From positions 1 through 48,144 of the forward strand of contig JAIYDS010000235.1 of assembly GCA_027487385.1 (NCBI GenBank): a DNA stretch of 48,144 nt. Reading direction: 5' to 3'. Both the position numbers and the translations under genes were made by a program. This document shows, one piece after another, positions 2,429-40,421 of the stretch; within the stretch, counting starts at the first letter, position 1; the number at the start of each line of letters is the position of its first letter. The DNA comes from Acetobacteraceae bacterium (GTDB taxonomy: Bacteria > Pseudomonadota > Alphaproteobacteria > Acetobacterales > Acetobacteraceae). A model generated the notes under the pieces. That model was not told the DNA's origin and did not search any database. It worked only from the letters and a program-made list of their open reading frames with translations.

Positions 2429-2539
2429 ATTCAATTCGGAAAACATATTGTAGAACAGAGGCTTGAAAGAGGCGCCTCAATCCCCGGATCAGATCATCTC
2501 AAAAAGATTACCGACTCTTGAAAAGCCGAAAACGCCCCA

Positions 2540-2570
2540 TTGACGGAAGGTCTCAAAAAAGCGTAAACAT
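2540..2570 (+). promoter_or_regulatory. Sigma70-like promoter of the giant adhesin gene
   Basis: TTGACG at 2540-2545 is followed after 18 bases by TAAACA (2564-2569). Transcription would begin near 2576-2578, leaving a leader of about 47 bases that starts almost exactly at a hairpin. The call rests on consensus and spacing only. Confidence 0.45.
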
Positions 2571-2578
2571 CGCCTTAA

Positions 2579-2607
2579 CGGAAGGAAGGCCCCCCTTCGT
2601 CCTTCCG
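2579..2607 (+). promoter_or_regulatory. 5' UTR hairpin immediately upstream of the Shine-Dalgarno
   Basis: CGGAAGGA (2579-2586) pairs perfectly with TCCTTCCG (2600-2607) around a 13-base loop. The Shine-Dalgarno GGAGG is at 2611-2615 and the ATG at 2624. If the promoter at 2540-2570 is right, the hairpin sits at the very 5' end of the message, the position of the stabilising stems known for long-lived envelope-protein mRNAs such as ompA. A role in message stability or translational control is inferred. Confidence 0.45.
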
Positions 2608-2623
2608 GCTGGAGGCAAAGCCC

Positions 2624-13390: not shown

Positions 13391-13435
13391 GGCGGGACCT
13401 GGCGCGGGGGCGCTGGGCACCCACCGGATCAGAGG

Positions 13436-13466
13436 AAAGCCCCGGCGGGTGACTGCCGGGGCTTTT
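13436..13466 (+). terminator. Rho-independent terminator of the adhesin gene
   Basis: AAAGCCCCGGC (13436-13446) pairs with GCCGGGGCTTT (13455-13465) around an 8-base loop and runs into TTTT. It lies 46 bases after the stop codon. The stem is long, GC-rich and perfect. Confidence 0.9.
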
Positions 13467-13495
13467 CGGTGTCTGCCGCCTGCGATGCGGTCAAG

Positions 13496-13529
13496 AAAAA
13501 GGGCCCCCGGCGTGTCGCGCCGGGAGCCC
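13496..13529 (-). terminator. Rho-independent terminator of clpA
   Basis: Read on the minus strand, the stem GGGCTCCCGGCG/CGCCGGGGGCCC (one mismatch) has a 5-base loop and is followed by TTTTTCTT. It lies 28 bases past the clpA stop. With the plus-strand terminator at 13436-13466 it insulates the convergent adhesin and clpA genes. Confidence 0.85.
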
Positions 13530-13556
13530 CTAAAGCTCCGTGCCGGGTCGAGCGGC

Positions 13557-22540: not shown

Positions 22541-22621
22541 CGTCGTCCCGTTCTGGCCGCCAACTGATCGCCGGCAGCCGGGCAAATCATGAATCCGGCG
22601 CCCCAGGAGGATGCCGGACCC

Positions 22622-23593
22622 ATGATCACCCGCCGTAGCCTGACACTCGCCCTCGTGGCCGCGCCGGCCGTTGCGCGCGCGCAAGCCTGGACGCCGACCG
22701 GCCCCGTCCGCATCGTCGTGCCCTTCCCGGCGGGTGGCACCACCGACATCCTGGCCCGGCTTTACGCGCAGCGCCTGACCGAGACGCTGGGCGTCTCCGT
22801 CGTTGTCGAGAATCGGGGCGGGGCGGGCGGCTCCATCGGCGCGGATGTGGTGGCCAAGGCGGCGCCGGACGGGCAGACGCTGCTCTTCCACAACCTCACC
22901 TTCAGCACCACCACGGCGGCGCTGGAATTCGCGAACCGCGCCCCGCATTCCATCGAGCGCGACTTCGCCCCCATCACGCTCGGCGCGAATGTGCCGATGA
23001 TGCTGCTGGTGCATCGCGACGTGCCGGCCAACAACCTCACGGAATTTGCCGCCTGGGCGCGCAGCCAGCCCACCCCTCCGTTCTATGGCTCGACCGGCCC
23101 GGGCAGCACCATGAACCTGGTGGGTGAGGTGCTGAAGCGAGATGGCCGCTTCCCGATGGACCACGTGCCCTTCCGCGGCGCCGCGCCGCTGGTGCAGGAC
23201 ATGCTGGCCGGGCGCATCCAGTTCGGCGGGGACCAGCTGTCTTCCTCGCTCACCCATATCCGCGGCGGCACGCTCCGCCCCATCGCCACCCTCTCCGCCA
23301 CCCGCGCCAGCGCGCTGCCCGAGGTGCCCACGGTGCGGGAGCAGGGCTTCCCCAATGCCGAGATGCTGGGCTGGAACGGGTTCTTCGCGCCCGCCCGCAC
23401 GCCGGAGGCGACGCTGGCGCGGCTGCAGACGGAGATCGCCGCCGCCGCCCGCTATCCGGCCCTGGCGGCGCGCATCCAGGAGCTGGGCGCCGTGCCCGGC
23501 GGCAATTCCAGCGCGGAATTCACACAGCAGGTGCATGGGCAGATCGCCGCCATGCGGCCGCTGGTGCAATCCCTCCAGATGCGGGTCGAGTGA
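22622..23593 (+). CDS. Bug/TctC-family periplasmic solute-binding receptor (copy A)
   Basis: A tripartite tricarboxylate transporter receptor, 323 residues, with an N-terminal signal (MITRRSLTLALVAAPAVARAQA). The mature protein shows the family core: VRIVVPFPAGGTTDILARL, the ligand-binding loop VVVENRGGAGGSIGADVVAKA, a central FYGSTGPGS segment and the downstream GWNGFFAPARTPE. Such proteins bind small carboxylates or related metabolites in the periplasm; the ligand cannot be predicted. No tctA/tctB membrane genes are linked, which is common for these expanded orphan receptor families. An upstream ATG at 22589 is possible, but AGGAGG 11 bases before 22622 and the signal-peptide position favour 22622. 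The stop overlaps the next start. Confidence 0.93.
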   Translation: MITRRSLTLALVAAPAVARAQAWTPTGPVRIVVPFPAGGTTDILARLYAQRLTETLGVSVVVENRGGAGGSIGADVVAKAAPDGQTLLFHNLTFSTTTAALEFANRAPHSIERDFAPITLGANVPMMLLVHRDVPANNLTEFAAWARSQPTPPFYGSTGPGSTMNLVGEVLKRDGRFPMDHVPFRGAAPLVQDMLAGRIQFGGDQLSSSLTHIRGGTLRPIATLSATRASALPEVPTVREQGFPNAEMLGWNGFFAPARTPEATLARLQTEIAAAARYPALAARIQELGAVPGGNSSAEFTQQVHGQIAAMRPLVQSLQMRVE

Positions 23594-24564
23594 TGCGCCG
23601 CCGCCACCTCCTCGCGGCGCCGCTCCTGGCCGCGCCGCTTGTCGCCCGCGCCCAAGCCTGGTCTCCCAATGGGCCGATCCGCGTCGTCGTGCCTTTCGCC
23701 GCCGGCGGGACGACGGATATCCTCGCCCGCCTCTATGGCAATCGCCTGACCGAGACGCTGGGCGTGCCCATCCTGGTCGAGAATCGGGGTGGCGGTGGCG
23801 GTTCCATCGGCGCCGATGTGGTCGCCAAGGCCGCGCCGGACGGGCAGGTGCTGCTGTTCCACAACTCCACCTTCTCGGCCACCAGCGCGGTGATGGAGTT
23901 CCAGAACCGCGCGCAGCATTCGCTGGAGCGGGATTTCGCCCCCATCAGCCTGGGCGCGCTGGTGCCCACCGTGGTGCTGGTCCACCCTTCGGTGCCCGCC
24001 ACCACCGTGCCGGAATTCGTCACCTGGGCGCGGGCGCAGCCCTCGCCGCCCTTCTATGGCTCGACCGGCCCCGGCAGCGCTGGCCATTTGGTCGGCGAGG
24101 TGATGAAGCGCGACGGCAATTTCCAGATGGAGCATGTGCCCTTCCGCGGCGCCTCGCTCCTCATGCAGGACTTGATCGTGGGCCGCATCCAGTTCGGCGG
24201 CGACCAGCTTTCCACCGCGCTGCCGCATATCCGCTCCGGCGCGGTGCGGCCCATCGCCATTCGCTCCACCGCGCGAAACCGCATGTTGCCGCAGATCTCC
24301 ACGGTGCGGGAGCAGGGTTTTCCCAATGCGGAAATCCTGGGCTGGAACGGCTTCTTCGCCCCGGCCCGCACGCCGGAGGCGGTGCTGGTCCGGCTGCAGG
24401 CGGAAATCGCGGCCGCCGCCCGCTATGCCCCGCTGGCGGCGCGGATTGATGAGCTGGGCGCTGATCCGGGCGGCAATTCCACGGCGGAGTTCACCACCAT
24501 GGTGCATGCCCAGGTGGCGGCGCTGCGCCCCGTCGTGGCCTCCCTGAACCTGCGGGCGGAATAG
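23593..24564 (+). CDS. Bug/TctC-family periplasmic solute-binding receptor (copy B)
   Basis: Same family and exactly the same length (323 residues) as the preceding gene, to which it aligns end to end without gaps and with about two thirds identity by eye. It is a tandem duplicate. The signal is MRRRHLLAAPLLAAPLVARAQA. Conserved blocks include PFAAGGTTDILARLY, VENRGGGGGSIGADVVAKAA, FYGSTGPGS and GWNGFFAPARTPEA. Differences cluster in the ligand-facing stretches (FHNSTFSATSAVMEF against FHNLTFSTTTAALEF) and in the segment before TVREQGFPNAE, suggesting changed ligand preference. The ATG overlaps the stop of copy A (TGATG), so the pair is cotranslated. A GTG at 23590 is a less likely start. Confidence 0.93.
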   Translation: MRRRHLLAAPLLAAPLVARAQAWSPNGPIRVVVPFAAGGTTDILARLYGNRLTETLGVPILVENRGGGGGSIGADVVAKAAPDGQVLLFHNSTFSATSAVMEFQNRAQHSLERDFAPISLGALVPTVVLVHPSVPATTVPEFVTWARAQPSPPFYGSTGPGSAGHLVGEVMKRDGNFQMEHVPFRGASLLMQDLIVGRIQFGGDQLSTALPHIRSGAVRPIAIRSTARNRMLPQISTVREQGFPNAEILGWNGFFAPARTPEAVLVRLQAEIAAAARYAPLAARIDELGADPGGNSTAEFTTMVHAQVAALRPVVASLNLRAE

Positions 24565-24813: not shown

Positions 24814-25431
24814 TCAGTGGATTTGCGGCGTGTTCACCCAGACCAGCCGCGCCGTTCCCGGCCCCGGATTGCGATACCGGGTGGTCAGGTGCGCCTTGTA
24901 AAAGAAGGAGTCGCCCGGGCCGAGGAGATAGGTCGTCCCGTCAATCGTGAATTCGAGCTGCCCCTCGATCACATAGCCCAGCGCCTCGCCCTGGTGGGTG
25001 ATCTCATCCACCTTGGCGCCGCCCTCGGCGACCACATGGATATTGGCCTCCAGCATGTGGCCGGAACCGAAGGGGACCAGGCGCTCATACCGGACACCGG
25101 TTCCGCCCCGGATCGGGTCGGTCTCGGTCACCGGGCGCTGGCCCGCGCGCTGGATGAAGCTCGAATTCTGCGGGGCCAGCCCGAAAAAGGTCGCCATGTC
25201 GGTCTCCAGGCTGCGGATGATCTTTTGCAGCATGGGCAGGGAGGGGACGACGCGATCATTCTCGATCTTGGAGATCATGCTCTCGGTGCAGCCCACGCGC
25301 TCGGCCAATTCGCGCGCGCGCACGCCCTTGAGCATCCGCGCGTAACGCACCCGCGCGCCGATCTGCAGCGTCTCCGCACGTTCCTCCTGCGCCGCTGGGC
25401 CGGGCGGCCGCTGTGGATTCCTGATCGCCAT
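24814..25431 (-). CDS. XRE-family regulator with C-terminal cupin domain
   Basis: A 205-residue regulator. Residues about 25-80 form an XRE helix-turn-helix (GARVRYARMLKGVRARELAE, then VGCTESMISKIENDRVVPSL). Residues about 115-200 form a cupin (GEALGYVIEGQLEFTIDG, then LGPGDSFFYKA and HLTTRYRNPG) that probably senses a small ligand or metal. Such MerR/PuuR-like XRE-cupin proteins usually repress or activate neighbouring catabolic and uptake genes. It is the last gene of the dpp-amidase operon, 47 bases after the amidase, so it is probably autoregulated and likely controls the whole operon. Palindromes upstream of dppA are candidate operators. The ATG at 25431 has only a weak Shine-Dalgarno. 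Confidence 0.9.
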   Translation of the reverse strand: MAIRNPQRPPGPAAQEERAETLQIGARVRYARMLKGVRARELAERVGCTESMISKIENDRVVPSLPMLQKIIRSLETDMATFFGLAPQNSSFIQRAGQRPVTETDPIRGGTGVRYERLVPFGSGHMLEANIHVVAEGGAKVDEITHQGEALGYVIEGQLEFTIDGTTYLLGPGDSFFYKAHLTTRYRNPGPGTARLVWVNTPQIH

Positions 25432-25478: not shown

Positions 25479-26951
25479 CTACGCGGCCGCCACGGCTTGC
25501 AAATCGGAGGGGGAGTCCGGGCCCGCCGGCGGCCAGGGCCGCGCTTCCCCCGCGGCCGCTTCGAAGCTGGCGGCGGCGCGCAGCAGCAGGCCATCCTCCA
25601 GCCGCCGCCCCATCAACTGGATGCCGACAGGCAGGCCATCGGCGAAGCCGGCCGGAAGCGCGATGGCCGGCTGCCCGGTGAGGTTGGCCAGCGCGGCAAA
25701 GGGGGTCCAGTCATCTGCCCCCGCCGGCCGCCCGGCGATGCTGCCCGGCCCCAGAATATCCGTGGGGAAGGCGGTCACCGCCACGGCGGGGGTCAACAGC
25801 AGGTCATGCTGACGCATGAAGCGCCAGAGGAGGTTGGCGACGGTCTTGCGCGCCGTGATGGCGTCGGTGAAGTCCTCGGCGGTCCAGGGGTGGTCGAGCA
25901 GCGCCAGCACCTGGGGCGAGACCTCCGCGCGGCGGGGCAGGGCGAGGCGCCGCAGCCCGGTCAGATCCGTCTCCAGCGCCACCAGGGCACGAAAGAGGGG
26001 AGCCAGGTCACCGCAGCCGGGATCAGCCTGAACCACCTCGGCCCCCAACCGCGCGAAGCGCTCCGCCGCCGCATCGGCCAGGCGGCGCACCCCCGGCTCG
26101 ACGGCCGCAAAGCCAAGGTCGGGGCTATAGGCGATCCGCAAGCCGCGCAGATCATCGAGCGGCTCCGCCGACCAGGCCGCGGCCCCGGCGGGCAGGGACC
26201 AGCGGTCCCGGTCATCCGGTCCCGCCATGACCGAGAGCATCAGCGCAATATCCGCCACGCTGCGCCCGAGCGGGCCGATATGCTCCAGGGATTCCCAGCC
26301 CGAGGCGCCCGGCTGGGCTGCATCCCGGCAACCCGGCCAGAGGGGCACGCGCCCCATGCTCGGCTTCAGGCCCACGATGCCGCAGAGGGCGGCCGGGATG
26401 CGGACCGAGCCGCCGCCATCGCTGCCCACCGCGAGCGCCGCCATGCCCGAGGCCACCGCCGCGGCCGAACCGGCGCTTGATCCGCCCGAGGTCCGGTCCA
26501 GCCGCCAGGGGTTGCGCGTGGTCGGGAACAGCCGGTTGTGCCCGACCCCGCCATAGCCGAATTCCGACGTGTTGGTCTTGCCGAGGAGGATGGCGTCCGC
26601 CGCGCGCAGTCGCTCGACCACGATGTCGTCCGCCTCTGGAACATGATCGGCATAGAGGCGCGAGCCGAAGGTGGTCCGCAGGCCGCGCGTGGCGATCAGG
26701 TCCTTCACCGCCACAGGCACGCCCGCCAGCGGGCCGGGCGTCTCGCCGGCCGCGATACGCCGCTCCAGGGCCCGCGCGCGGGCCAGCGCGCCTTCGGCAT
26801 CCAGGGTGCAGAAGGCGTGCAGGGCGCCGTCCAGTGCTGCGATCTGCCGCAGATGCGCCTCGGTCACCGCGACGGGGCTGAGACGCCCGGCCGCGACCTC
26901 GCGCGCGATCGAAGCCGCGTCCTGGCGCCACAGGGGCGCGCCATCGTCCAT
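25479..26951 (-). CDS. Amidase, amidase-signature family
   Basis: Hydrolyses an amide bond; substrate unknown. The 490 residues have the Ser-cisSer-Lys triad at the expected spacing: Lys83 in GVPVAVKDLI, Ser158 in TSGGSSAGSAAA and the nucleophile Ser182 in GGGSVRIPAALCG (75 and 24 residues apart, as in the family). Start: the frame is open far upstream, but the ATG at 26951 (MDDGAPLWRQDAAS) overlaps the stop of the preceding gene and gives normal length. No signal peptide, so it is cytoplasmic. GatA is unlikely because gatB and gatC are absent and the neighbours form an uptake operon. Its place behind a peptide-type ABC importer suggests it acts on the imported compound. Confidence 0.93.
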   Translation of the reverse strand: MDDGAPLWRQDAASIAREVAAGRLSPVAVTEAHLRQIAALDGALHAFCTLDAEGALARARALERRIAAGETPGPLAGVPVAVKDLIATRGLRTTFGSRLYADHVPEADDIVVERLRAADAILLGKTNTSEFGYGGVGHNRLFPTTRNPWRLDRTSGGSSAGSAAAVASGMAALAVGSDGGGSVRIPAALCGIVGLKPSMGRVPLWPGCRDAAQPGASGWESLEHIGPLGRSVADIALMLSVMAGPDDRDRWSLPAGAAAWSAEPLDDLRGLRIAYSPDLGFAAVEPGVRRLADAAAERFARLGAEVVQADPGCGDLAPLFRALVALETDLTGLRRLALPRRAEVSPQVLALLDHPWTAEDFTDAITARKTVANLLWRFMRQHDLLLTPAVAVTAFPTDILGPGSIAGRPAGADDWTPFAALANLTGQPAIALPAGFADGLPVGIQLMGRRLEDGLLLRAAASFEAAAGEARPWPPAGPDSPSDLQAVAAA

Positions 26952-27421
26952 CAGCGGCCGCCCCGCCAGCCGGTGTCTTCCAGCCCCTGCGGCACGAAGT
27001 CCGGGAAGAGCCCGGCGCCGATGGCGGCCGCCCCGGCGCGGGCCACCGCCAGGTCCTGCGGCCCGGTGCCCGAGCCCGCGCCGATGCCGCCCACCAGCTG
27101 CCCCTCCACGATCAAGGGCAGCCCGCCCAGAAGGTTGGTGTAGCGCCCCTGCATGGCCAGCGTGACCTGCATCTCCACATCCGCATGCACGCCGCCCGTC
27201 GGCGCCATCTGCGCCACCGCCCCCTGCGCCTTCATGGTGGAGGAGCCGACGCTGTGGAACTTCGCGCCATCCATCCGCGCGAAGGCGAGGAGGTTGCCGC
27301 CGGGGTCCACCACCGCGATGCACATCGGCGCCGCGATGGCCTCGGCATGGGCGATGGCGGCGTCCAGCACACGGCGCGCGCCGGCATAGGTGAGGCTGGC
27401 GGTGGGGATGATGTCGGGCAT
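26951..27421 (-). CDS. GlcG/HbpS-like (DUF336) protein
   Basis: A 156-residue protein of the GlcG/HbpS fold: LTYAGARRVLDAAIAHAEA at the start, then CIAVVDPGGNLLAFARMDGA, STMKAQGAV and a glycine-rich end GGIGAGSGTGPQDLAVARAG. Members are found in glycolate, diol and amide catabolic operons; some bind haem or cobalamin, but the role of most is unknown. GGAG lies about 6 bases before the ATG at 27421; the frame is open to 27466 without a better start. Its stop overlaps the amidase ATG (TGATG), and it lies 16 bases after dppF. No signal peptide is visible from this start. Confidence 0.88.
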   Translation of the reverse strand: MPDIIPTASLTYAGARRVLDAAIAHAEAIAAPMCIAVVDPGGNLLAFARMDGAKFHSVGSSTMKAQGAVAQMAPTGGVHADVEMQVTLAMQGRYTNLLGGLPLIVEGQLVGGIGAGSGTGPQDLAVARAGAAAIGAGLFPDFVPQGLEDTGWRGGR

Positions 27422-27437
27422 GGGGGTCTCCGAAGGG

Positions 27438-28460
27438 TCAGGCTTGGCCGAGCAGGCGTTCGGCATGGCGCTGGAAGGCGGCGAAGCGGTCCGTCACCTC
27501 GGTCTCGCGCAGGACATGCTCGTGCCGGAAGCAGGCCACCTTGTGGCCCCCGCCGAGGTCGAGCGGCAGGGGACGCTCCGCCCGGCAACGTGCCTCGGCG
27601 AAGGGGCAGCGCGAGGCGAGGAAGCAGCCGGCCGGGAGGTCGATCGGGCTCGGGATCTCGCCTTGCAGGGCGAGGGCGGTGCCGCGCGGCTGGCCAGGAT
27701 CGGGCAGCAGCACCGATTGCAGCAGCCCAAGCGAATAGGGGTGGCGCGAGCGGCCGAAGACATCTGCGCCGCGCCCCTGCTCGACGATGGCGCCGAGATA
27801 GAGCACGGCGATGCGGTCGCTCAGGTGATGCACGGTGGAGAGATCGTGCGAGATGAAGAGATAGGCGGTGCCCATCTCGGCCTGCAGGCGTTGCAGCAGG
27901 TCCACCACCTCGGCGCGGGAGGTCGGGTCGAGCGCCGAGGTCGGCTCGTCGAGCACAATGATCTCGGGCCTGCTGGCTATGGCGCGCGCGATGCCGGCGC
28001 GTTGCAGCGTGCCGGCGCTGAGCTCGCCCGGGCGGGCGTGCAGGCTGGACGCCGGGAGGCCGACGCGGCGCGCCGCCTCCTCCACACGGCTGGCGCGATC
28101 CGCGAGGCCGAGGGCGCGCAGCGGTTCCTCGATGCAGGCGCCGATGGTGAAGCGCGGATCGAGCGCCTCGGCCGGTTCCTGGAAGACGATCTGCAGCTTG
28201 CCGCGGAACCAGGCCTCGCGGATCGAGGCGCGGCCGCGAATGGCGTTGCCGCGAAAGGCGATATGCCCCGAGGTGATGGGCAGGAGGCCGAGCACGCAGC
28301 GCCCGATGGTCGTCTTGCCCGAGCCGGATTCGCCCACCAGGGCCAGCGTCTCGCCGGGATCGAGGCGGAAGGAGACTCCGTTGACCGCCCGCACCAGCGC
28401 GCCACCCGCCGCCGGGAAGGTCTTGGTCAGGTCATCCACTTCGAGCAAAGGCGCGCTCAT
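27438..28460 (-). CDS. Oligopeptide/dipeptide-type ABC transporter ATPase (DppF-like)
   Basis: A 340-residue nucleotide-binding subunit with the OppF/DppF C-terminal Cys-containing extension (CFLASRCPFAEARC). It has intact catalytic motifs: Walker A GESGSGKTT (43-51), Q-loop Gln94 in IVFQEP, Walker B with Asp171-Glu172 in IIVLDEPTSALD and switch His205 in FISHD. Its signature is unusual, LSAGT (147-151) instead of LSGGQ. The start at 28460 overlaps the dppD stop (ATGA); the frame continues to 28589 but without homology. It pairs with DppD, whose motifs are degenerate in the complementary way (see findings). Confidence 0.94.
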   Translation of the reverse strand: MSAPLLEVDDLTKTFPAAGGALVRAVNGVSFRLDPGETLALVGESGSGKTTIGRCVLGLLPITSGHIAFRGNAIRGRASIREAWFRGKLQIVFQEPAEALDPRFTIGACIEEPLRALGLADRASRVEEAARRVGLPASSLHARPGELSAGTLQRAGIARAIASRPEIIVLDEPTSALDPTSRAEVVDLLQRLQAEMGTAYLFISHDLSTVHHLSDRIAVLYLGAIVEQGRGADVFGRSRHPYSLGLLQSVLLPDPGQPRGTALALQGEIPSPIDLPAGCFLASRCPFAEARCRAERPLPLDLGGGHKVACFRHEHVLRETEVTDRFAAFQRHAERLLGQA

Positions 28461-29434
28461 GCCGGCACCGCCGCACGGGCGATGGGGGCGTGGCAGCGCA
28501 CCGCATGTCCCGGCTCCAGCGCGGCCAAGGCGGGCGCCTCCACGGCGCAGCGCTCCATCGCGCGCACGCAGCGCAGCGCGAAGCGGCAACCGCGCTCGGG
28601 GATCTCGGGCGAGGCGTCGGGGCGCGTCCAGCGTGCGCGCAGGCTGGGCGAATGGGCGAAGGCCGCCAGCAACGTGGCGCTGTAGGGATGCCGCGGGGCC
28701 GAGAAGAAGGCGTCGCGGCCGGCCGTCTCCACCACCTCGCCGCGATGCATCACCGCGATGCGGGTGCAGAAATGCGCGGCGACGCCGATGTCGCGCGTGA
28801 TGTAGAGCATGGAGGTCTTCTGGCCGCTGACGAGATTGGCCAGCAGTTCCAGGATCTGCGCCTGCACCGTGACATCGAGGCCGCTGGTCGCGTCATCGGA
28901 GATGATGAAGCGCGGCGAGCAGGCGAGCGCGATGGCGATCACCACGCGCTGCGCCATGCCGCCCGAAAGCTCATGCGGATAGGCGTTGTAGCGGCGGATC
29001 GGGTCCGGGATGCGGACCGCCTCCAGCGTGGCGAGCGCCCTCTCCCGCGCGGGCTTGCGCGCCAGGCCCAGATGGGCGCGCAGCACGGCCGCGATCTGCT
29101 CGCCGATGGGACGCATCGGATCCAACTCGCTGCGGGGATTGGGCACGATCATCGCGAGGTCCCGGCCGCGCAGCTTGCGGAATTCACGCTCCTCCAGCCG
29201 CGCCAGGTCCTGGCCGTCGAGGCGGATCGCGCCCGCTGTGATGCGGCCGGGTGGCTTCAGCGCGCCCATGATGGCCCGGGCCAGCGTGGTCTTGCCGCAG
29301 CCCATCTCGCCCACCAGCGCCATGATCTCGCCCGTGCCCACTTCGAGATCGAGGCCGCGCACGGCTTCCACGGCCCGGCCGCCATAGGTGGGATAGGCCA
29401 CGTGCAACCCCTGGATGGAGAGGGATGGCGTCAT
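28457..29434 (-). CDS. Oligopeptide/dipeptide-type ABC transporter ATPase with degenerate site (DppD-like)
   Basis: A 325-residue nucleotide-binding subunit with the OppD-type C-terminal extension (CRFALRCVRAMERC). Walker A is GEMGCGKTT (42-50) and the signature LSGGM (156-160) is normal. Three other positions are changed: the Q-loop glutamine is Pro98 (MIVPNPRSELDP), the catalytic Glu after Walker B is Asp181 (FIISDDATSGLD) and the switch histidine is Arg214 (YITRDIG). The protein is full length with no frameshift, so the changes look selected rather than decayed. The ATG at 29434 is one base after the dppB stop. Confidence 0.93.
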   Translation of the reverse strand: MTPSLSIQGLHVAYPTYGGRAVEAVRGLDLEVGTGEIMALVGEMGCGKTTLARAIMGALKPPGRITAGAIRLDGQDLARLEEREFRKLRGRDLAMIVPNPRSELDPMRPIGEQIAAVLRAHLGLARKPARERALATLEAVRIPDPIRRYNAYPHELSGGMAQRVVIAIALACSPRFIISDDATSGLDVTVQAQILELLANLVSGQKTSMLYITRDIGVAAHFCTRIAVMHRGEVVETAGRDAFFSAPRHPYSATLLAAFAHSPSLRARWTRPDASPEIPERGCRFALRCVRAMERCAVEAPALAALEPGHAVRCHAPIARAAVPA

Positions 29435-29435
29435 C

Positions 29436-30446
29436 TCAGCCTCGCGTCCTGGGGTCGATCAGGAGGTAGAGGAAATCCACCACGAGATAGACCAGCAGCG
29501 AGAAGACGGCTGCGAAGATGATGAAGCCCATGATCGCGTTGAGATCCGCGTTCAGCACGGCGCCCACCGCATATTGCCCGGCGCCGCCCCAGCTGAAGAC
29601 GATCTCCACCAGCACGGCGCCGCCCAGCAGATAGCCATAGAGGACACTCACCACCGTCAGCACCGAGGGCAGGGCGTTGCGCAGCGCGTGGCGGCGGATG
29701 GCCCAGGGCGGCAGGCCGCAGAGGTGCTGGTACTGGCTGAAATCCGCCTCCAGCATGCGTTCCATCGTGGATTGCGTCATCTTGAGGATCGGGCCGGCAT
29801 TGACGATGCCGAGGGTGAGCACGGGCAGCACGAGCTGCGCCGCGGCGGACCAGAACACCTCCCAATCTCCGGCGATCAGCGCATCGAGCGTCAGCACGCC
29901 CGTCACCTGCGGCGGCGCCAGCAGGCCGATATCGAGCCGCCCCATGGGCGGCGGCGCCCAGCCGAGGAAGGAGAAGAAGACCAGAATCAGCAGCAGCGCA
30001 AACCAGAAATCCGGCAGCGCGCCGGCGGCGAAGCCGTAGCCGTCGGAAAGGCGTCGCACCCAGCCCTCCGGCCGCTGGGCCGCCAGCACGCCGAGTGGCA
30101 CGCCGATGGCGATGGCGAGCAGCAGGCCCAGTGTCACCAGCTCCAGTGTCGCCGGGAATTTGCGCAGCAGGTCCTCCAGCACCGGGCGCGTGGTGAGCCA
30201 GGAGGTGCCGAGATCGCCTTGCATCAGGCGCGAGACGTAATGCCCGAACTGCACCAGCAGGGGCTCGTTCAGCCCCATCTGCTCGCGCAGCTGCTCCAGG
30301 TTTTCGCGCGTGGCGAGCGGGCCGAGGATCAGCGGCACCGGGTCGCCGGGGATGGATTTGATCAGGAAGAAGCTGACCAGCACGATGCCGAAGAGCTGCG
30401 GCACCAGATAGGCGAGGCGCAGCGCCGCGTGACGCAGGAACCACAT
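29436..30446 (-). CDS. Dipeptide-type ABC transporter permease (DppB-like)
   Basis: A 336-residue inner-membrane permease with about six membrane spans. The N-terminal MWFLRHAALRLAYLVPQLFGIVLVSFFLIKSIPGDP is the classic DppB/OppB start. GDLGTSW and the EAA-like loop DFSQYQHLCGLPPWAIRRHALRNALPS, which contacts the ATPases, are both clear. The order is unusual: the DppC-like gene comes first, and its stop overlaps this ATG (TGATG). Confidence 0.95.
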   Translation of the reverse strand: MWFLRHAALRLAYLVPQLFGIVLVSFFLIKSIPGDPVPLILGPLATRENLEQLREQMGLNEPLLVQFGHYVSRLMQGDLGTSWLTTRPVLEDLLRKFPATLELVTLGLLLAIAIGVPLGVLAAQRPEGWVRRLSDGYGFAAGALPDFWFALLLILVFFSFLGWAPPPMGRLDIGLLAPPQVTGVLTLDALIAGDWEVFWSAAAQLVLPVLTLGIVNAGPILKMTQSTMERMLEADFSQYQHLCGLPPWAIRRHALRNALPSVLTVVSVLYGYLLGGAVLVEIVFSWGGAGQYAVGAVLNADLNAIMGFIIFAAVFSLLVYLVVDFLYLLIDPRTRG

Positions 30447-31345
30447 CAGCCGCGCCTCCGCATGTCACCCAGCGCGCGGCGCTTGCCGGGGTCCGAGAGG
30501 ATCTCGATGCTGGCGCCGATCAGCGCGAAGCCGAAGACCGTGATGGAGAGCGCAAGCCCCGGGAAAAGCGATGGCCACCACTGGCCCGTGATGACGTTCT
30601 GGTAGCCCATGGCGATCATGTTGCCCCATTCCGGCGTGGGCGCGCGCACACCGGCGCCGATGAAGCTGAGCCCCGCCGTCAGCAGGATCGCCATGCCGAT
30701 ATTCACCGAAGTCTGCGCCAGGATGGGCCCCAGCGCATTGGGGATGATGTGGCGCAGCAGGATGACGGTATCGGAGGCGCCGGCGATGATCGCGGCCTCG
30801 ATGAAGTTGCGTCCCCGCAGCGCCAGCGCCTGGGCGCGCATGAGCCGCAGATAGATCGGCGTGGAGACGAAGACGATGGCGAAGATGATGCTCTCCAGGC
30901 TCTGGCCGAAGACCGCGACCAGCGCCAGGGCAAAGGCGAAGACGGGAAAGGCTTGCAGCACATCGCTGCCGCGCAGCACCACCAGGGAGACGAGGCCCGC
31001 GGCGCTGCTTCTTCCTTCGTGATAGCCGACGAAGGCGCCGAGCGCCGTGCCCAGCAGGGCCGAGAGCAGCGTGCCCAGCAGCGCGATGGTCAGGTCCATG
31101 CGTGGCGCGTGCAGCACGCGGCTCAGGACGTCGAGCCCGGCCTGGTCGGTGCCGAAGGGATGCGTCCAGCTCGGCGGCAGGAGGAAGGCGCCGGGGATGG
31201 ATTGCGTGGCCGAATGCGGTGAGATCCATGGGGCCAGGATCGCGACCAGCACCATGCCGAGCACGATCACATAGCCCAGCGCGAAGAGGGGGTGGCGGCG
31301 CAGGAAGGCGGCGAAGAAGCCGAGGCTCCCCGCGCGCCCGCCCAT
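30446..31345 (-). CDS. Dipeptide-type ABC transporter permease (DppC-like)
   Basis: A 299-residue permease starting MGGRAGSLGFFAAFLRRHPLF, with the DppC hallmarks HPFGTDQAGLDVLSRVLH, several membrane spans, the EAA loop RGRNFIEAAIIAGASDTVILL followed by RHIIPNALGPILAQ, and PTPEWGNMIAMG. The frame runs upstream to 31540 through sequence that overlaps the binding-protein gene and lacks homology, so the ATG at 31345, 17 bases after the dppA stop, is preferred. Confidence 0.94.
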   Translation of the reverse strand: MGGRAGSLGFFAAFLRRHPLFALGYVIVLGMVLVAILAPWISPHSATQSIPGAFLLPPSWTHPFGTDQAGLDVLSRVLHAPRMDLTIALLGTLLSALLGTALGAFVGYHEGRSSAAGLVSLVVLRGSDVLQAFPVFAFALALVAVFGQSLESIIFAIVFVSTPIYLRLMRAQALALRGRNFIEAAIIAGASDTVILLRHIIPNALGPILAQTSVNIGMAILLTAGLSFIGAGVRAPTPEWGNMIAMGYQNVITGQWWPSLFPGLALSITVFGFALIGASIEILSDPGKRRALGDMRRRG

Positions 31346-31362
31346 CCTGGCCGCCGCCTGGC

Positions 31363-33021
31363 TCAGGACACGCCCCGCCGCACATCCTGGAAGCGGATGG
31401 TGTTGGAGCTGTAGTAGGCGAGGCCCGAAAGCCCCGTCTGATGCGCGAACTGGTAGCCGGTGAAGGCGATATGCACCCAGGGGCTTTCCCGCATCACGAT
31501 CGCTTGCGCGCGCGTCACGATCTCCTGCCGACGCGGCCAATCCATGGTCTGCAGGCTTTCGTCGATCAGCGCATCCACCTCGGGGTTGGTGTAGCTCGTG
31601 TGGTTGATGAAGGAGGTGGAGCGGAAATAGAGGTTCAGCGCGAAGCTCGGATCGGGCGTGAAGGGCGCGTCCACATGGAACATCAGCGGCTGCGAACGGT
31701 CCGTCATGAAGCGGAAATAGGTGGCGGCGGGAATGCGGTTGAGCGTGAGCTCGATGCCGATGGCCCGGAGCGCCGTCTGGTACATGATGGCGATGGGCTC
31801 CTGCTCGGGGATGCCCGCATTGTAGGAGAGCTCGGTGCGGAAGCCGCTGGCGAAGCCGGCCTCGGCCAGCAGGCGGCGGGCGGCCTCGATGTTCGTGTCG
31901 TATTCCCAGAACTGGTCGGTGGCGCCGGGGTAGAAGAGCGGCATGACGCCCTTGAGCGGCGCGCCGAAGCCTTGCAGCACGCTGCGCAGCACCTCGTCGC
32001 GCGGGAAGGCAAGGTTCATCGCGCGGCGCACGGCCACGTTGTTGAAGGGCGCCATGCGTGTGTTCATCTGGATCCAGATGCCCTGCGTCGCGTCCAGGTT
32101 GGCCACCCGCACCGTCCGGTGGTTGGCGAGCGCGATGTAATCGGTGGGCGCCAGGAATTGCGCGATATCCGCCGCACCGCCCTGCACCAACGAGAGCCGG
32201 GCGGCGGAGGTCGCGACCTCGCGGAAGATCACCGTCTCCATGAAGGGCTTGCCGCCCCAGTAGTCGTCGCGCGCTGTGGCGACCATCTGCTGGCCGCGCG
32301 TCAATTCGCGCATGTTGTAGGGGCCGAAGCCCGCGACGTTGGTATCAAGCCAGCGGCGCGACCAGGGGTCATCCCCCGCGGCCATCTCCTTCGCCTTCTT
32401 CTGGTCGAAGATCGGGTTGCCGATATGGGTGGTGACGGGCAGGAAGATGGCGTTCGGCCGCTCGATCGAGAAGGAAACGGCGAGCGGGCCCTCCACGCGC
32501 ACCTGGTCGGGGTCGGACATGCCGAGCGCCCGGGTCATGAAGCCGTCGCGCCCGCGCAGGGCGAATTTCCGGTCGAAGGTGTATTTCACATCCTCGGCCG
32601 TCAGCGGGTTGCCCCAGCCGCTGCGCACGCCCTCGCGCAGGTGGAAGGTGATGCGGCGGTTGTCGGCCGACCATTCCCAGCGCTGGGCGAGCTGCCCCTC
32701 GGGGGCCGCGGCGAAATTCTCGCGCTGATAGGCCGGCTGGCGCGGATCATTCATCAGCGGATAGCGCGTGAGATTGTCATAGAAGGCCGCCATGACGTTG
32801 CGCGAGCCGATGGAAAGCGCGTTCTCCACATCCATGCTCTGCGGGGTGGCGGAAGAGGCGACGACCAAGGTCCGACCGCGCCCCTGCGCCGAGGCCGGGC
32901 TGGGCGCGCCGCTCGCGGCACCCAGGGCGCCGATGCCCATCGCGCCCGTGAGCAGGCTTCGGCGCCGGACCGTGGCCCGTCCGAGGAAGGGGGCGGCCGG
33001 GCTTTCGCGTGTGTCGTCCAT
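31363..33021 (-). CDS. Periplasmic peptide/amide-type solute-binding protein (DppA/OppA family)
   Basis: A 552-residue cluster C binding protein. The N terminus has a Tat-like signal, VRRRSLLTGAMGIGALGAAS, cleaved around ASAQG. Family blocks include TLVVASSATPQSMDVENAL, WSADNRRITFHLREGVRSGW and NPLTAEDVKYTFDRKF. The C-terminal lobe contains DPSFALNLYFRSTSFINHTS. Start: GAGGAG lies about 7 bases before the ATG at 33021, while the open frame back to 33093 has no signal-peptide logic. It is the first gene of an eight-gene minus-strand operon ending with the XRE-cupin regulator. The ligand is unknown; the linked amidase suggests an amide-bearing compound. Confidence 0.94.
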   Translation of the reverse strand: MDDTRESPAAPFLGRATVRRRSLLTGAMGIGALGAASGAPSPASAQGRGRTLVVASSATPQSMDVENALSIGSRNVMAAFYDNLTRYPLMNDPRQPAYQRENFAAAPEGQLAQRWEWSADNRRITFHLREGVRSGWGNPLTAEDVKYTFDRKFALRGRDGFMTRALGMSDPDQVRVEGPLAVSFSIERPNAIFLPVTTHIGNPIFDQKKAKEMAAGDDPWSRRWLDTNVAGFGPYNMRELTRGQQMVATARDDYWGGKPFMETVIFREVATSAARLSLVQGGAADIAQFLAPTDYIALANHRTVRVANLDATQGIWIQMNTRMAPFNNVAVRRAMNLAFPRDEVLRSVLQGFGAPLKGVMPLFYPGATDQFWEYDTNIEAARRLLAEAGFASGFRTELSYNAGIPEQEPIAIMYQTALRAIGIELTLNRIPAATYFRFMTDRSQPLMFHVDAPFTPDPSFALNLYFRSTSFINHTSYTNPEVDALIDESLQTMDWPRRQEIVTRAQAIVMRESPWVHIAFTGYQFAHQTGLSGLAYYSSNTIRFQDVRRGVS

Positions 33022-35981: not shown

Positions 35982-38900
35982 ATGGGGGAAATCTTTGGCC
36001 GGGCGCTGCCCACGAAGGCGCTGCCCTGGACGGGCGAGCGCCTGACATCGGCCGCCAATCTCCAGGTTCAGCTCGAGCATCTGCATCGCTACTTCCTGGC
36101 GCGGGAGGTGGCCCGCGGGCTCGATGTGCTCGATGTCGCGGCGGGTGAGGGCTATGGGAGCGCCTTCCTGGCGCAGACCGCGCGCTCGGTCGTCGGCCTG
36201 GATTGCGACGGGGCAAGCGTGGCCCACGCCAGCGCAGCCTATGTCGCCGCCAATCTGCGCTTCGTCGCCGGGGATGCCCGGCGCCTGCCGCTGCCGGATG
36301 CGGCGTTCGACCTCATCGTTTCCTTTGAGACGCTGGAGCATTTCGCCGAGCACGACGACTTCCTGGCCGAGCTTCGCCGCGTGCTGCGGCCCGGCGGCCG
36401 CCTGCTCTTGAGCACGCCCGACCGCGACACCTACTCGCCGGCGGAGGCTCCGGCCAATCCTCACCATGTGCGGGAACTCTCGCGGGTGGAACTGGACCGG
36501 CTGCTGCGCCGCCACTTCGCCCATGTCGCGCTGCTGGGGCAAAGGACCATGCTCGGCTCGGCCATCTTCGCCGAGGAGCCCGCCCCGGCCGCCGGGTTGG
36601 TGACCTTCGAGCAGCGCGGCCCGGAGCGGTTCGAGGCCTCAGCCGGGCTGCCGCGCGCGCTCTATCTGCTGGCCCTGGCCTCGGATCAGGCGCTGGGCGC
36701 GCTGCCGGGCAGCCTCTATGTCCACACGGGTCAGGTCGAGGCGGCGGTCGCGGCGGAGGCGGAGCGGCTGGGCGCGGCGCAGCAGGCGGTCCAGCAGGCG
36801 GAACGGGCCTTGCTGGAACAGGATCTCCAGGCCCTGCGGGTCGGAATGACGGCGCTGCGGAACAGCCTCCAGGAGATCGGCGCCGGTCGCGCCCGGGCCG
36901 AGGCGGATTTGGTGGAGGCACGGGACAGCCTTGCCCAGGCCGAGGCCGCGCTGGCCGCCCGATCGGCGCTGCTGGAGCAGGCGGAGGCGGCACAGCTTGG
37001 CACCGAGGTGCGGCTCGCGCAGGCGGAGGTCGGCCGCCTCGCCACCCAGTTGCGCCTCTCACAGACCGAGTCCGCCCGCCAGCTCAGCGAGGCCCAGCTG
37101 GAGGGGCTGCGGCGCGAATTGCGCGAAACCCGGGCGCGACTGGCCGAGGCTGAGGCCTATGGCGCCCATGCCCATGCCGAATTCACCAAGGGGGTGGCGG
37201 GCCTGGCGGAAGCCGCGGCCTATGCCCGACGGCTGGAGCGGGAGTTGCTGGTCGAGCGTTCGCGGGCGGAACAGGCCGGTCCGCGGCTGGAGGCGATCCT
37301 GGCCTCGCGCAGCTGGCAGGCGCTGCAGCCGCTGCGTTGGCTGGCCGGGACATCGGCCCCGCTGCGGCGCGTGCTGGGCACGGTGAGTGGGATGCTGCCT
37401 TGGGTGCGCGCCGATGTGGCCCTGCCGGCATGGGCGGAACCGCCGCCGCTCGCCGCCGAGAGCGACGCCCCACCCGACAGCAAGGCCGCGCTGAACCGCG
37501 AGCTGGAGGCCGAACTGCAGCATTTCCTGGCGATGGGCGAGCGGCTGACCTTTCCCGAGGTCACGGCGCCGGCGGTTTCCGTTCTCGTGGTGCTCTACAA
37601 TCAGGCCCACCTGACCCTGCAATGCTTGCGCCAGCTGCGGGCCCAGCAGGGCGCGCCGCTGGAGGTCGTGCTGGTGGACAACGCCTCCTCCGACGCGACG
37701 TCGCGGTTGCTGGCGCAGCTCTCGGGCGTGCGGATCCTGCGCAACGTCACCAACCAGGGCTTCCTGCCCGCCACCAACCAGGCGGCAGCCCTGGCGCGCG
37801 GACGGCATCTGCTGCTGCTGAACAGCGATGCCTTCCTCCGCCCCGGTGCGCTGGCGGCCGCGCTCGCGACGCTGGAGGGCGAGCCGCGGGCCGGTGCGGT
37901 GGGGGCGCGGCTGATCCTGCCCTCGGGGCAGTTGCAGGAGGCCGGGAGCATCATCTGGTCCGATGGCAGCGTACTGGGTTATGGCCGCGGCCTCTCGCCC
38001 GAGGCCGGCGCCGCAATGTTCCGGCGCGACGTGGATTATTGCTCGGGCGCCTTCCTGCTGACGCCGCGGTCGGTCTGGGAGAGCCTGGGCGGCTTCGATG
38101 CCGCCTTCAGCCCTGCCTATTACGAGGATGCCGACTACTGCATGCGCCTGCGGGCCGCCGGGCTCCGGGTGATCTACGAGCCTGCGGCGGCCGTGGACCA
38201 TTATGAGTTCGGCAGCGAAGCGCGGCAGGGCGCGGCGACGGAGGCGATGCGGCGCCACGCCCAGCTGTTCCGCGAACGTCACGCGGAGGCGCTGCGGCGG
38301 GATCACCTGCCGCCCGCGACGGCAAACCAGCTGCGTGCGCGGGAACCGGCGGCCTGCCGGGACCGCAAGCTGCTCATCATCGACGACCTGCTGCCCCTGC
38401 AGGTGAACGGGTCCGGCCTGCCGCGCGCCCGCGCCATCGTGGCCGGCGCGGTGGCGGCGGGCTGGTCCGTCACGCATTACCCCCTGCACGAGCTGGAGGT
38501 GGACTGGGATCGCCTGCGGCGGGAGTTGCCGCCGGGGGTGGAGGTCATCAATCGGCACGGCATGCCCGCGCTCGGCCGCTTTCTCGACGAGCGCGCGGGG
38601 CATTACCACACGGTGCTGGTCAGCCGGCCGCACAACATGGCGGTGCTCTGGAACGCGCTGGGCGGCCGCACCGACCCGCTGGGCGAGGCCCGGGTGATCT
38701 ACGATGCCGAGGCGATCTACGCGGCGAGGGAGGCCGCGGAGGCTGCCACGGCGGGGCAGCCCCTGGCGCCGGCCGAGGCCGAACGCCGCATCGCCGAGGA
38801 AATCCGCCGCTGCACCTCGGGCGCGAATGCCGTCACCTGCGTGACGGCGATGGAGTATGACCTGTTTCGCCGTCATTTGCCGCCGGACCGGCCGCTTTAT

Positions 38901-40421
38901 CGCCTCTCGCATTCGGTGCCGGCGGCCGTCGCTTCGCCGGGGCATGCGCCGCGCCGCGGCTTCCTCTTCGTCGGCCGGTTGCTGGAGCGCGATTCGCCGA
39001 ACTGGACGGGGCTGAGCTGGTTCCTCCGCGAATGCTGGCCGCTGGTGCGCCGCGCCCTGCCGGATGCCGAACTCACGGTGGTGGGCCGGCTGCATGCGGA
39101 TCACGCGGCACTGGCCGGGCCGGGGGTGCGCCTCCTGGGGCCGGTGGAGGCGTTGCAGCCGCTCTACGACGCCGCGCGCGTCTTCCTGGCGCCGGTGCGC
39201 TTTGCCGCGGGCGTGCCGATCAAGATCGTGGAGGCCACGGCCGCCGGCCTGCCCACGGCCTGCACGCTGTTGATGGCCCAGCAACTGGGCTGGCCGGCCG
39301 GGGAAGCGCTGGCCGCCGCCGATGATCCCGCCGGGCTGGCTGACGCCGCCGTGGCCTTGCATGAGGATGCGGCCGCCTGGACGGCGATGCTGGCCGAGGC
39401 CCAGGCGCGGCTGCGGCGCGACTTCGACCCCGCCGCCTTCCAGGATACCCTGGAAGCCGCGCTGGAGGGACGCCTGACCGCGCTGGATGCGGCGGCGCAA
39501 TCCCATCGCCTGGCCCGGGTGGACGCGCTCTGGGGCAAGGCGCCGCCGAGCGACGAGGCCGCGCAATGGGCGACCTACCCGACCTCCCACCCCGTGGTGC
39601 TGGCCGAGATGAATCGCCGCGCCACCGGACGGCCGGACCGGGACGGCTTCGGTGCCCTCAGGGATCTTCTGGAGCGGGAGGGGCATCGCTTGCCGCTGCC
39701 CCGCACCGCCTCCCTGTGCTGCGGGACCGGATGGCTCGAGCGCGGATTGGTGGCGCAAGGCCTGCTCGGCCATTGCATCGGCTATGATCTGGCGCGCGGC
39801 GCCGTGGATCTGGCGCGCGCTGCCGCCGAGGCGGAGGGTCTGGGCGCCGTTCTGGAGTACCGCCATTGCGACCTGGAGACGACCGGCCTGGGCGAGGCGG
39901 GGCTCGACCTCGTCCTGGGCTATCAGGGCGTGCACCACATCTCCCGGCTCGAATTCGTGTTCGACAACGTGCATGCCGCGCTGCGGCCGGGCGGGCTGTT
40001 TCACCTGCAGGAATTCGTCGGGCCCGATCGGTTTCAATGGACCGAGCGGCAGCTGGAGGAAATGTCCGCCTGGTTGCGGGACCTGCCGGAGCGCTACCGC
40101 ATCACCCTGGAGGGCCAGGTGAAGCTGGCGGCCGGCCGTGCGAGCCTGGAGGAGATGCTCGCGAGCGACCCCACCGAGGCGGCGCGTTCCTCGATGATCG
40201 AGCCCTTGCTGGCTGAGCGCTTTGAGATCATCGAGCGGCGCCCCTTGGGGGGCACGCTGGCGATGATGGCGCTGGCCGGCATCGCCCATAACTTCGACCC
40301 CAAGGTGGCGGAGGATGTGGCGCATATCGACCGCCTGATGGCGCGGGAGGCCGAGTTGATGGCGAGTGGCGCGCTTGGCAGCGATTTCCTGATGGTCACC
40401 GCCCGCCGCCAGGCCGCCTAG
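35982..40421 (+). CDS. Fusion: methyltransferase - coiled coil - GT2 - GT4 - methyltransferase
   Basis: A 1479-residue cytoplasmic protein with five parts. Residues about 15-220: methyltransferase with LDVLDVAAGEGYGSAFLAQ and FDLIVSFETLEH. About 245-430: long coiled coil rich in Ala, Glu, Leu and Gln, then ASRSWQALQPLRWL, a stretch typical before GT modules. About 530-770: GT2 with VSVLVVLYNQAH, LVDNASSDATS, LLNSDAF (the DxD position reads NSD) and YYEDADYCMRL. About 790-1150: GT4/GT-B with LFVGRLLERDSPNW and APVRFAAGVPIKIVEATAAG. About 1235-1479: methyltransferase with SLCCGTGWLERGL and LGYQGVHHIS. AGGAG lies 6 bases before the ATG. It probably adds at least two sugars and methylates a surface glycan; the coiled coil recalls the ruler of WbdD-type O-antigen terminators. 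Substrate and order of action are inferred. Confidence 0.88.
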   Translation: MGEIFGRALPTKALPWTGERLTSAANLQVQLEHLHRYFLAREVARGLDVLDVAAGEGYGSAFLAQTARSVVGLDCDGASVAHASAAYVAANLRFVAGDARRLPLPDAAFDLIVSFETLEHFAEHDDFLAELRRVLRPGGRLLLSTPDRDTYSPAEAPANPHHVRELSRVELDRLLRRHFAHVALLGQRTMLGSAIFAEEPAPAAGLVTFEQRGPERFEASAGLPRALYLLALASDQALGALPGSLYVHTGQVEAAVAAEAERLGAAQQAVQQAERALLEQDLQALRVGMTALRNSLQEIGAGRARAEADLVEARDSLAQAEAALAARSALLEQAEAAQLGTEVRLAQAEVGRLATQLRLSQTESARQLSEAQLEGLRRELRETRARLAEAEAYGAHAHAEFTKGVAGLAEAAAYARRLERELLVERSRAEQAGPRLEAILASRSWQALQPLRWLAGTSAPLRRVLGTVSGMLPWVRADVALPAWAEPPPLAAESDAPPDSKAALNRELEAELQHFLAMGERLTFPEVTAPAVSVLVVLYNQAHLTLQCLRQLRAQQGAPLEVVLVDNASSDATSRLLAQLSGVRILRNVTNQGFLPATNQAAALARGRHLLLLNSDAFLRPGALAAALATLEGEPRAGAVGARLILPSGQLQEAGSIIWSDGSVLGYGRGLSPEAGAAMFRRDVDYCSGAFLLTPRSVWESLGGFDAAFSPAYYEDADYCMRLRAAGLRVIYEPAAAVDHYEFGSEARQGAATEAMRRHAQLFRERHAEALRRDHLPPATANQLRAREPAACRDRKLLIIDDLLPLQVNGSGLPRARAIVAGAVAAGWSVTHYPLHELEVDWDRLRRELPPGVEVINRHGMPALGRFLDERAGHYHTVLVSRPHNMAVLWNALGGRTDPLGEARVIYDAEAIYAAREAAEAATAGQPLAPAEAERRIAEEIRRCTSGANAVTCVTAMEYDLFRRHLPPDRPLYRLSHSVPAAVASPGHAPRRGFLFVGRLLERDSPNWTGLSWFLRECWPLVRRALPDAELTVVGRLHADHAALAGPGVRLLGPVEALQPLYDAARVFLAPVRFAAGVPIKIVEATAAGLPTACTLLMAQQLGWPAGEALAAADDPAGLADAAVALHEDAAAWTAMLAEAQARLRRDFDPAAFQDTLEAALEGRLTALDAAAQSHRLARVDALWGKAPPSDEAAQWATYPTSHPVVLAEMNRRATGRPDRDGFGALRDLLEREGHRLPLPRTASLCCGTGWLERGLVAQGLLGHCIGYDLARGAVDLARAAAEAEGLGAVLEYRHCDLETTGLGEAGLDLVLGYQGVHHISRLEFVFDNVHAALRPGGLFHLQEFVGPDRFQWTERQLEEMSAWLRDLPERYRITLEGQVKLAAGRASLEEMLASDPTEAARSSMIEPLLAERFEIIERRPLGGTLAMMALAGIAHNFDPKVAEDVAHIDRLMAREAELMASGALGSDFLMVTARRQAA

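Follow-up and report, generated by a model that had tools for sequence, protein, structure and literature searches.

A peptide-type importer of the Opp/Dpp family with one intact and one altered composite ATP site is encoded in a 48,144-nucleotide stretch of DNA from an Acetobacteraceae bacterium (GenBank assembly GCA_027487385.1, contig JAIYDS010000235.1, positions 1 to 48,144), here called the window. One of its two ATP-binding cassette (ABC) ATPases, DppD, has lost the canonical Q-loop Gln, catalytic Glu and switch His, and the signature of its partner, DppF, is altered. All four changes fall in the same composite site, because an ABC site pairs the Walker side of one subunit with the signature of the other. 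The reading that we favour, and consider probable, is an importer with a conserved asymmetric ATPase pair, in which the DppD site binds ATP and hydrolyses little or none of it, and the DppF site hydrolyses. It has long been asked, mostly with the help of mutants made in the laboratory, whether an ABC importer must split one or two ATP per cycle; nature has here preserved a one-sided site across dozens of distinct systems of a family whose structures are known (E. coli Dpp and Opp). ATP-site asymmetry, best known from exporters, has thus arisen in a major importer family.

ATP-site residues of DppD and DppF

One site of an ABC dimer is composed of the Walker A and B motifs and the A-, Q- and H-loops of one subunit together with the signature of its partner (PMC7756269). 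Codons were taken straight from the minus strand, with DppF numbered from the ATG at 28460 (Table 1). In an alignment with E. coli DppD (8z1v_C), Pro98, Asp181 and Arg214 of the window's DppD stand opposite Gln, Glu and His, and Asp181 is opposite Glu179, the residue mutated in the E. coli work (PMC12136057). The initial annotation, made from the letters alone, had listed these three residues and the LSGGM signature in DppD, and the LSAGT signature, normal Q-loop, Glu172 and His205 in DppF; the codons agree and the numbering is right. Its claim that the damage is confined to one composite site is also borne out, since the site formed by the DppF Walker side and the DppD signature has all canonical residues in the window. 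The pair shows two features of the degenerate-site class, a catalytic Glu replaced in one nucleotide-binding domain (NBD) and a partner signature altered in the same composite site, and it departs from the usual, though not strictly defining, Opp/Dpp trait of two canonical sites.

The single-chain AlphaFold models have mean predicted local distance difference test scores of 90.6 (DppD) and 88.1 (DppF). The best match of the DppD model was E. coli DppD 8z1w_C (template-modelling score 0.90), and those of the DppF model were E. coli OppF 8z21_D and DppF 8z1y_D/8z1w_D; the subunit identities are therefore fixed. Four C-terminal cysteines of the window's DppD align with the [4Fe-4S] ligands of E. 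coli DppD, as they do in 34 of the 37 related pairs described below, the other 3 having gaps.

Occurrence of the pattern in other genomes

Within the window's genus, an orthologue was found in 2 of 21 genomes (E <= 1e-88), the window's own genome being one of the two. In the other (G009), DppD is 91% identical and carries the same four changes in identical motifs. A tblastn search of plasmids matched 2679 records, of which 20 were listed and the best 6 fetched. Five of these six, at 52-56% identity, came from Cupriavidus, Mesorhizobium, Bradyrhizobium, Aminobacter MSH1 and Agrobacterium rubi, and every one has Pro, Asp and Arg in DppD. The DppF signatures of four of them read LPSGQ, ISAGQ, LSAGQ and LSAGQ; in the fifth, from Cupriavidus (L031), DppF is internally deleted. 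On this Cupriavidus sp. KK10 plasmid (L031:5885-6437), DppD is complete with the asymmetric motifs, and DppF lacks the part lying between its Walker A region and its C-terminal domain. The sixth relative, from Embleya (L036, 50% identity), is canonical, and so is a pair from Rhizobium SSA_523 (L165).

A one-genome-per-species scan with the patterns [HQ]ELSGGMA and DDATSGLD, the latter biased toward the Glu-to-Asp change, yielded at least 20 new members (L037-L055 and L060), the best 80 of 572 matches being used. A profile built from 27 members recovered the pattern in 14 genomes of the 299 sampled from the family, in 6 of 385 from the class and in 3 of 398 from the phylum; the window's genome is included in all three counts. 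Profile scores at E <= 1e-100 were bimodal, with members at 426-550 bits and all others at 361 or below. Removal of identical pairs and of L031 left 37 distinct pairs, of which 33 are assigned to Alphaproteobacteria through their record label or their relatedness to the window's genome, and four come from metagenome bins labelled bacterium, Proteobacteria, Planctomycetota and Euryarchaeota. The DppD and DppF stretches of L043, labelled Solirubrobacterales, are identical to those of L117, from a genome of the window's family (G071), and the label of L043 looks wrong.

A sequencing error at these codons, which had been named beforehand as a possible refutation, is ruled out by the 91%-identical orthologue with the same changes and by 35 further distinct pairs in which DppD changes of this kind go with a deviant DppF signature. 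The same pairs bear out the co-occurrence of the changes in orthologues, which the initial annotation had named as a check. In Acetobacteraceae, the family in which it proposed to look, the pattern is present, and the count of 14 in 299 rules out a family-wide trait; nor is it confined there, being found also in Mesorhizobium, Bradyrhizobium, Aminobacter, Agrobacterium and others.

For comparison, 40 control D/F pairs were hand-picked, independently of the NBD motifs, among the listed matches to PF08352, a C-terminal domain that was searched for in 100 genomes and matched in 65. Both members of each pair were among the matches listed; the pairs came from 17 genomes, 4 of them from the window's own, and 31 had not already been counted under an earlier locus. 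With canonical defined as Gln/Glu/His and xSGGx in both subunits, all 40 were canonical. In the whole material, 256 distinct D genes were called, and 12 with incomplete motif calls in D or F (L031 among them) were left out. The resulting 244 pairs were mostly drawn by similarity to the window proteins, not at random, and may count some genes twice where a fetched stretch cut a gene. Fully canonical pairs numbered 200; an altered DppD Walker side was joined to an altered DppF signature in 38; four (L174, L176, L202, L205) had the DppD signature altered as well; the DppD Walker side alone was altered in L056 and the DppF signature alone in L107. The opposite polarity, an altered DppF catalytic side, was seen in none, DppF Gln, Glu and His being intact in 244 of 244.

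Conservation and selection

The table of 37 pairs was picked by Asp and Arg at DppD positions 181 and 214 (37/37 each), and the motif-free tree described below returns the same 37 rows as a clade; the clade therefore contains no row without Asp181 and Arg214. Position 98 is Pro in 27 rows, Ser in 6 and Ala in 4, and Gln in none. Lys48 and Thr49 of Walker A, Asp180 of Walker B, Asp187 and the SGGM of the signature are each kept in DppD in 37/37, as are Walker A, Gln, Glu and His in DppF, so that the intact composite site is canonical throughout. The third position of the DppF signature is non-Gly in 36 of 37 (Ala 27, Met 4, Pro 2, Ser 2, Ile 1, and a sole Gly in L130). An altered signature does accompany the DppD changes; the form LSAGT, named in the initial annotation, was seen only in the window's genome and G009, and the commonest form among members is LSAGQ. 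The replaced positions are as fixed in this clade as the canonical ones are elsewhere, which does not look like drift.

The eight genes tested are under purifying selection. Against G009, the ratio of nonsynonymous to synonymous substitution rates (dN/dS) was 0.133 for DppD, 0.065 for DppF and 0.041 for DppB, the remaining five lying between 0.040 and 0.105; the value of DppD, near 0.13, therefore indicates no decay. The pairwise divergence of DppD relative to DppF had a median ratio of 1.06 in the clade versus 0.98 and 1.01 in canonical groups. Relaxed selection on DppD is supported neither by dN/dS nor by this ratio.

Phylogeny and the order of changes

INTERMEDIATES and the order of changes were taken from a tree on concatenated DppD and DppF with the motif columns removed (69 rows; support given as bootstrap/SH-aLRT, the Shimodaira-Hasegawa-like approximate likelihood ratio test). 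Ten duplicates had been taken out before the first tree (L126 and L171 repeat L001); L209 and L210, in which dppD and dppF lie apart and which are outside the 244 pairs, were added by hand to the second. The 37 pairs form a single clade (100/100), nested in a 41-row clade without Gln98 and the switch His (95/88), which is itself nested in a 46-row clade (99/92) to which all altered pairs of the tree belong; near the latter stands a group of 11 canonical rows (100/100).

Altered rows outside the 37 keep the catalytic Glu. L142 has Pro, Glu and Arg in DppD and FSAGQ in DppF; L209 and L210 have Pro, Glu and Gly, with a DppF signature LTASE encoded some kilobases away in both loci. L174, L176, L202 and L205 are a second altered lineage, with the DppD switch His changed to Gln and Glu kept; their signatures are LSSGM or LSTGM in DppD and MSAGR or LGAGR in DppF, and the DppF D-loop reads SALTPE or SALSPE. 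L107 is the sister of this group. The DppD-like ATPase of L209 lies within a 577-amino-acid open reading frame (ORF; 12081-13814) that also matches permease C, likely a permease-ATPase fusion; the DppD motifs of L210 (719-1489) are the same as in L209 (Pro for Gln, Gly for the switch His).

By parsimony, the tree has one Gln loss, one Glu-to-Asp change, two His losses and two DppF signature changes. Glu-to-Asp was probably the last step in the window's lineage, because neighbouring lineages without Gln and/or His retain Glu; this order leans on the 41-row clade, which has fair support and long branches. The DppF signature may have changed repeatedly, or a single time and then reverted in L056. 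We tentatively suggest, as something possible and short of probable, that Opp/Dpp importers tend to change one way: the DppD site is lost and the DppF catalytic residues are kept. Within one clade of D/F pairs, the Q-loop, the switch His and the partner signature, all contacts to ATP, would be loosened before the catalytic Glu is lost, an order that the locking model discussed below predicts. The altered DppD signatures in L174, L176, L202 and L205 weigh against this suggestion. If true, the 46-pair clade would offer a natural succession for testing how a two-site importer turns into a one-ATP importer. The one-sided systems, together with living intermediates that retain the catalytic Glu, allow direct tests of how many ATP are used, which site fires, and why loss of the Glu is accompanied by a change in the partner signature.

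Function of the two ATP sites

ATP binding at the DppD site is likely retained, because Lys48, Thr49 and Asp180 are present in 37/37, and the intact Walker A and Asp180 make binding without hydrolysis likely there. The term 'dead', used for this site at first, is too strong; 'probably ATP-binding, non- or slowly hydrolysing' fits better. In the favoured mechanism, DppD and DppF would form a head-to-tail heterodimer in the known ABC arrangement, with ATP hydrolysis expected at the canonical DppF site. The DppD site keeps the phosphate- and Mg-binding residues just named and has lost its gamma-phosphate sensors (Gln, His), its strong general base (through the Glu-to-Asp change) and the first glycine of the partner signature. 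The ATP held there is most likely a structural or regulatory ligand, permanent or slowly exchanging; one ATP per cycle would then drive import, and the loosened DppF signature may stop the non-hydrolysing site from locking the dimer shut.

Of the alternatives, the one that survives best, though we regard it as unlikely, is that both sites hydrolyse, with Asp181 as a slower base and Arg214 standing in for the switch His, so that the site is slow, not silent. The fixation of Asp181 and Arg214 across the 37 rows would be expected of residues with a chemical role, and Walker A and Asp180 are intact. This proposal has to contend with the change of the Q-loop, Glu, His and partner signature together, with Pro, Ser or Ala at position 98, which are unable to contact the gamma-phosphate as Gln does, and with a signature position that varies among A, M, P, S and I; in the M. 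tuberculosis OppABCD structures, moreover, Asp at the catalytic position goes with an entry described as pre-catalytic.

A weaker candidate, which we think improbable, holds that the DppD site no longer binds nucleotide usefully and that DppD is only a structural partner of DppF. The retention of Walker A (GxxGxGKT) and of Asp180 in 37/37 is difficult to fit with it, and in RbsA/NupO-type importers the second site, suggested to be non-binding, has lost the Walker A Lys (PMC11466899). On its side are the loss of four site elements and, in structures of E. coli DppBCDF with ATP analogues, an occupied DppF and an empty DppD (PMC12136057).

It is very improbable that DppD and DppF do not face each other at all and instead form homodimers (F2 or D2) or combine with other ATPases of the genome, which would make the site assignment moot. 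The genome does have many Opp/Dpp ATPases (at least 24 PF08352 matches), but the two genes share four bases within a single operon, the models of their products correspond to chains C and D in the heterotetramer of E. coli, and the changes in the two proteins are complementary across one composite site. Decay of DppD in an operon on its way to loss is hardly credible, largely contradicted as it is by dN/dS of 0.04-0.13 over eight genes, by the similar pace of DppD and DppF divergence and by the fixation of the replaced residues themselves, even though presence is patchy (2 of 21 genus genomes), the DppF of Cupriavidus L031 is internally deleted and dN/dS is higher for DppD than for any of the other seven genes.

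Several observations weigh against the favoured reading of a conserved, one-sided ATPase pair. L130 has the full DppD pattern together with a DppF signature of LTGGQ, L056 combines Pro, Glu and Arg in DppD with LSGGQ in DppF, and L107 has a canonical DppD with LSTGM in DppF; in L174, L176, L202 and L205 the altered DppD signature means that both sites are affected. By dN/dS, constraint is weakest on DppD among the eight genes, though far from neutral. Asp may serve as a weak base, and the DppD site could then hydrolyse slowly. The full pattern has a single origin on the tree, and only 2 independent pairs are available for a test of co-occurrence, which is therefore strong as conservation and not evidence of repeated co-evolution. 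Finally, a canonical relative can use either site: in E. coli Dpp with DppA, the single mutants DppD E179Q and DppF E187Q retain clear ATPase activity at similar levels, which is abolished in the double mutant (PMC12136057). The activity of the single mutants also means that, in the Opp/Dpp family, a single working site can be enough for ATP hydrolysis.

Gene row and other features of the window

The operon runs on the minus strand in the order binding protein, permease C, permease B, DppD, DppF, HbpS-like protein, amidase and helix-turn-helix (HTH)-cupin regulator (Table 1). The dppD stop and the dppF start share ATGA. The Opp/Dpp-type (family 5) gene set is complete, with SBP_bac_5, two BPD_transp_1 permeases and two ABC_tran/oligo_HPY ATPases. 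Scores against the E. coli-type NCBIfam equivalogs fell below the curated cut-offs (256.7 versus 541 bits for DppD, 232.9 versus 660 bits for DppF), and the names therefore give no substrate assignment. A short-chain dehydrogenase lies directly 3' of dppF in 24 of the 32 members with enough flank (38 members, 6 too short); in the window and G009, the HbpS-like protein and the amidase take its place.

Table 1. Importer gene row and ATP-site residues, in window coordinates.
Feature	Coordinates	Strand	Basis
HTH + cupin regulator, end of row	24814..25431	minus	PuuR-like, under the cut-off of that model
Amidase, start uncertain	25479..26951	minus	PF01425; 88% identity in G009
HbpS-like small protein	26951..27466	minus	PF03928; 98% identity in G009
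DppF/OppF-type ATPase, 340 amino acids from ATG at 28460	27438..28460	minus	PF00005 + PF08352
DppF switch His205, CAC, intact	27846..27848	minus	codon
DppF catalytic Glu172, GAG, intact	27945..27947	minus	codon
DppF signature LSAGT; completes degenerate site	28008..28022	minus	codons
DppF Ala149, GCC, third signature position	28014..28016	minus	codon
DppF Q-loop Gln94, CAG, canonical	28179..28181	minus	codon
DppD/OppD-type ATPase, 325 amino acids	28457..29434	minus	PF00005 + PF08352; fold of E. coli DppD 8z1w_C
DppD switch (H-loop) position Arg214, CGC (canonical His)	28793..28795	minus	codon + alignment
DppD Walker B catalytic position Asp181, GAC (canonical Glu)	28892..28894	minus	codon + alignment
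DppD signature LSGGM, intact; completes DppF site	28955..28969	minus	codons
DppD Q-loop position Pro98, CCC (canonical Gln)	29141..29143	minus	codon + alignment
DppB-type permease	29436..30446	minus	PF00528 + PF19300
DppC-type permease ORF, start uncertain	30446..31540	minus	PF00528 + PF12911 OppC_N
Family 5 substrate-binding protein, start uncertain	31363..33021	minus	PF00496 SBP_bac_5

Elsewhere in the window, a 3588-amino-acid ORF (2624-13390, plus strand) has nine SdrD_B-like stretches and, near its C-terminus, RTX calcium-binding repeats in 27-base tandem units within 12042-12812, and resembles a giant secreted adhesin; an overlapping ORF of 3702 amino acids on the opposite strand (2489-13597) has no Pfam match. 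A 1479-amino-acid ORF (35982-40421, plus) combines methyltransferase, family 2 and group 1 glycosyltransferase domains in one chain. Beside the regulator, on the opposite strand, two adjoining genes (22589-24564, plus) of similar predicted sequence have the look of a tandem duplication; the first encodes a TctC-type binding protein, and the second, scanned by NCBIfam alone, gave no match.

Comparison with known systems

The closest known systems are E. coli DppABCDF (8z1v-8z1z) and OppBCDF (8z21) and M. tuberculosis OppABCD and DppABCD, all of which resemble the window system in gene set, NBD fold and a C-terminal oligo_HPY domain with cysteines; those of E. coli also have separate DppD and DppF. 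The ATP analogue found only in DppF of E. coli DppBCDF gives the same polarity as in the window pair. Unlike the window's DppD, the aligned known chains have a canonical Q-loop Gln and switch His. At the catalytic position, 8wd9, 8j5q and 8z1v have Glu, whereas 8wdb has Gln and 8j5s has Asp, both probably engineered. In M. tuberculosis OppD, Asp replaces the catalytic Glu in both NBDs of 8j5s/8j5t, where 8j5q/8j5r have Glu; the title of 8j5s describes a pre-catalytic intermediate, so that Asp, the residue natural in the window's DppD, is paired there with a pre-hydrolysis state.

No description of a degenerate site in an Opp/Dpp importer was found in the open-licence literature searched, in line with the initial annotation, which knew of none. 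For importers at large the novelty does not hold: RbsA/NupO-type importers of B. subtilis have been described, from sequence, as having one degenerate ATP site, and a claim of 'first in importers' would therefore be wrong. Their second site has lost the Walker A Lys and is suggested neither to bind nor to hydrolyse ATP, and their NBDs are fused in a type II importer, whereas Opp/Dpp systems are classed as type I (PMC11466899); DppD and DppF of the window are separate ORFs.

One consensus and one degenerate site, as in the window pair, are found in the exporters TAP1/TAP2, TM287/288, ABCC1 and ABCB11. TAP2 and CFTR have similar-looking signature motifs. The exporters just listed lack a binding protein, and type IV exporters fuse the transmembrane domain to the NBD, whereas the window system has a binding protein, separate permeases and separate importer ATPases, and the losses in it extend to the Q-loop Gln and the switch His. 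TAP holds ATP unhydrolysed in its degenerate site while hydrolysis takes place in the other (PMC12422388). In ABCC1, Asp is naturally present in the degenerate Walker B, and restoring Glu lowered transport; mutation of the switch His of that site had little effect (PMC7756269). ABCB1 with E556M alone was locked by tight ATP binding, and transport was restored, through weaker ATP binding, when other ABCB11 residues including G1178R were added (PMC7544095). G1178R marks the third signature position, which is changed in ABCB11; the Dpp clade alters this same position and appears to keep its catalytic Glu longest, and by analogy would fit the same locking rule.

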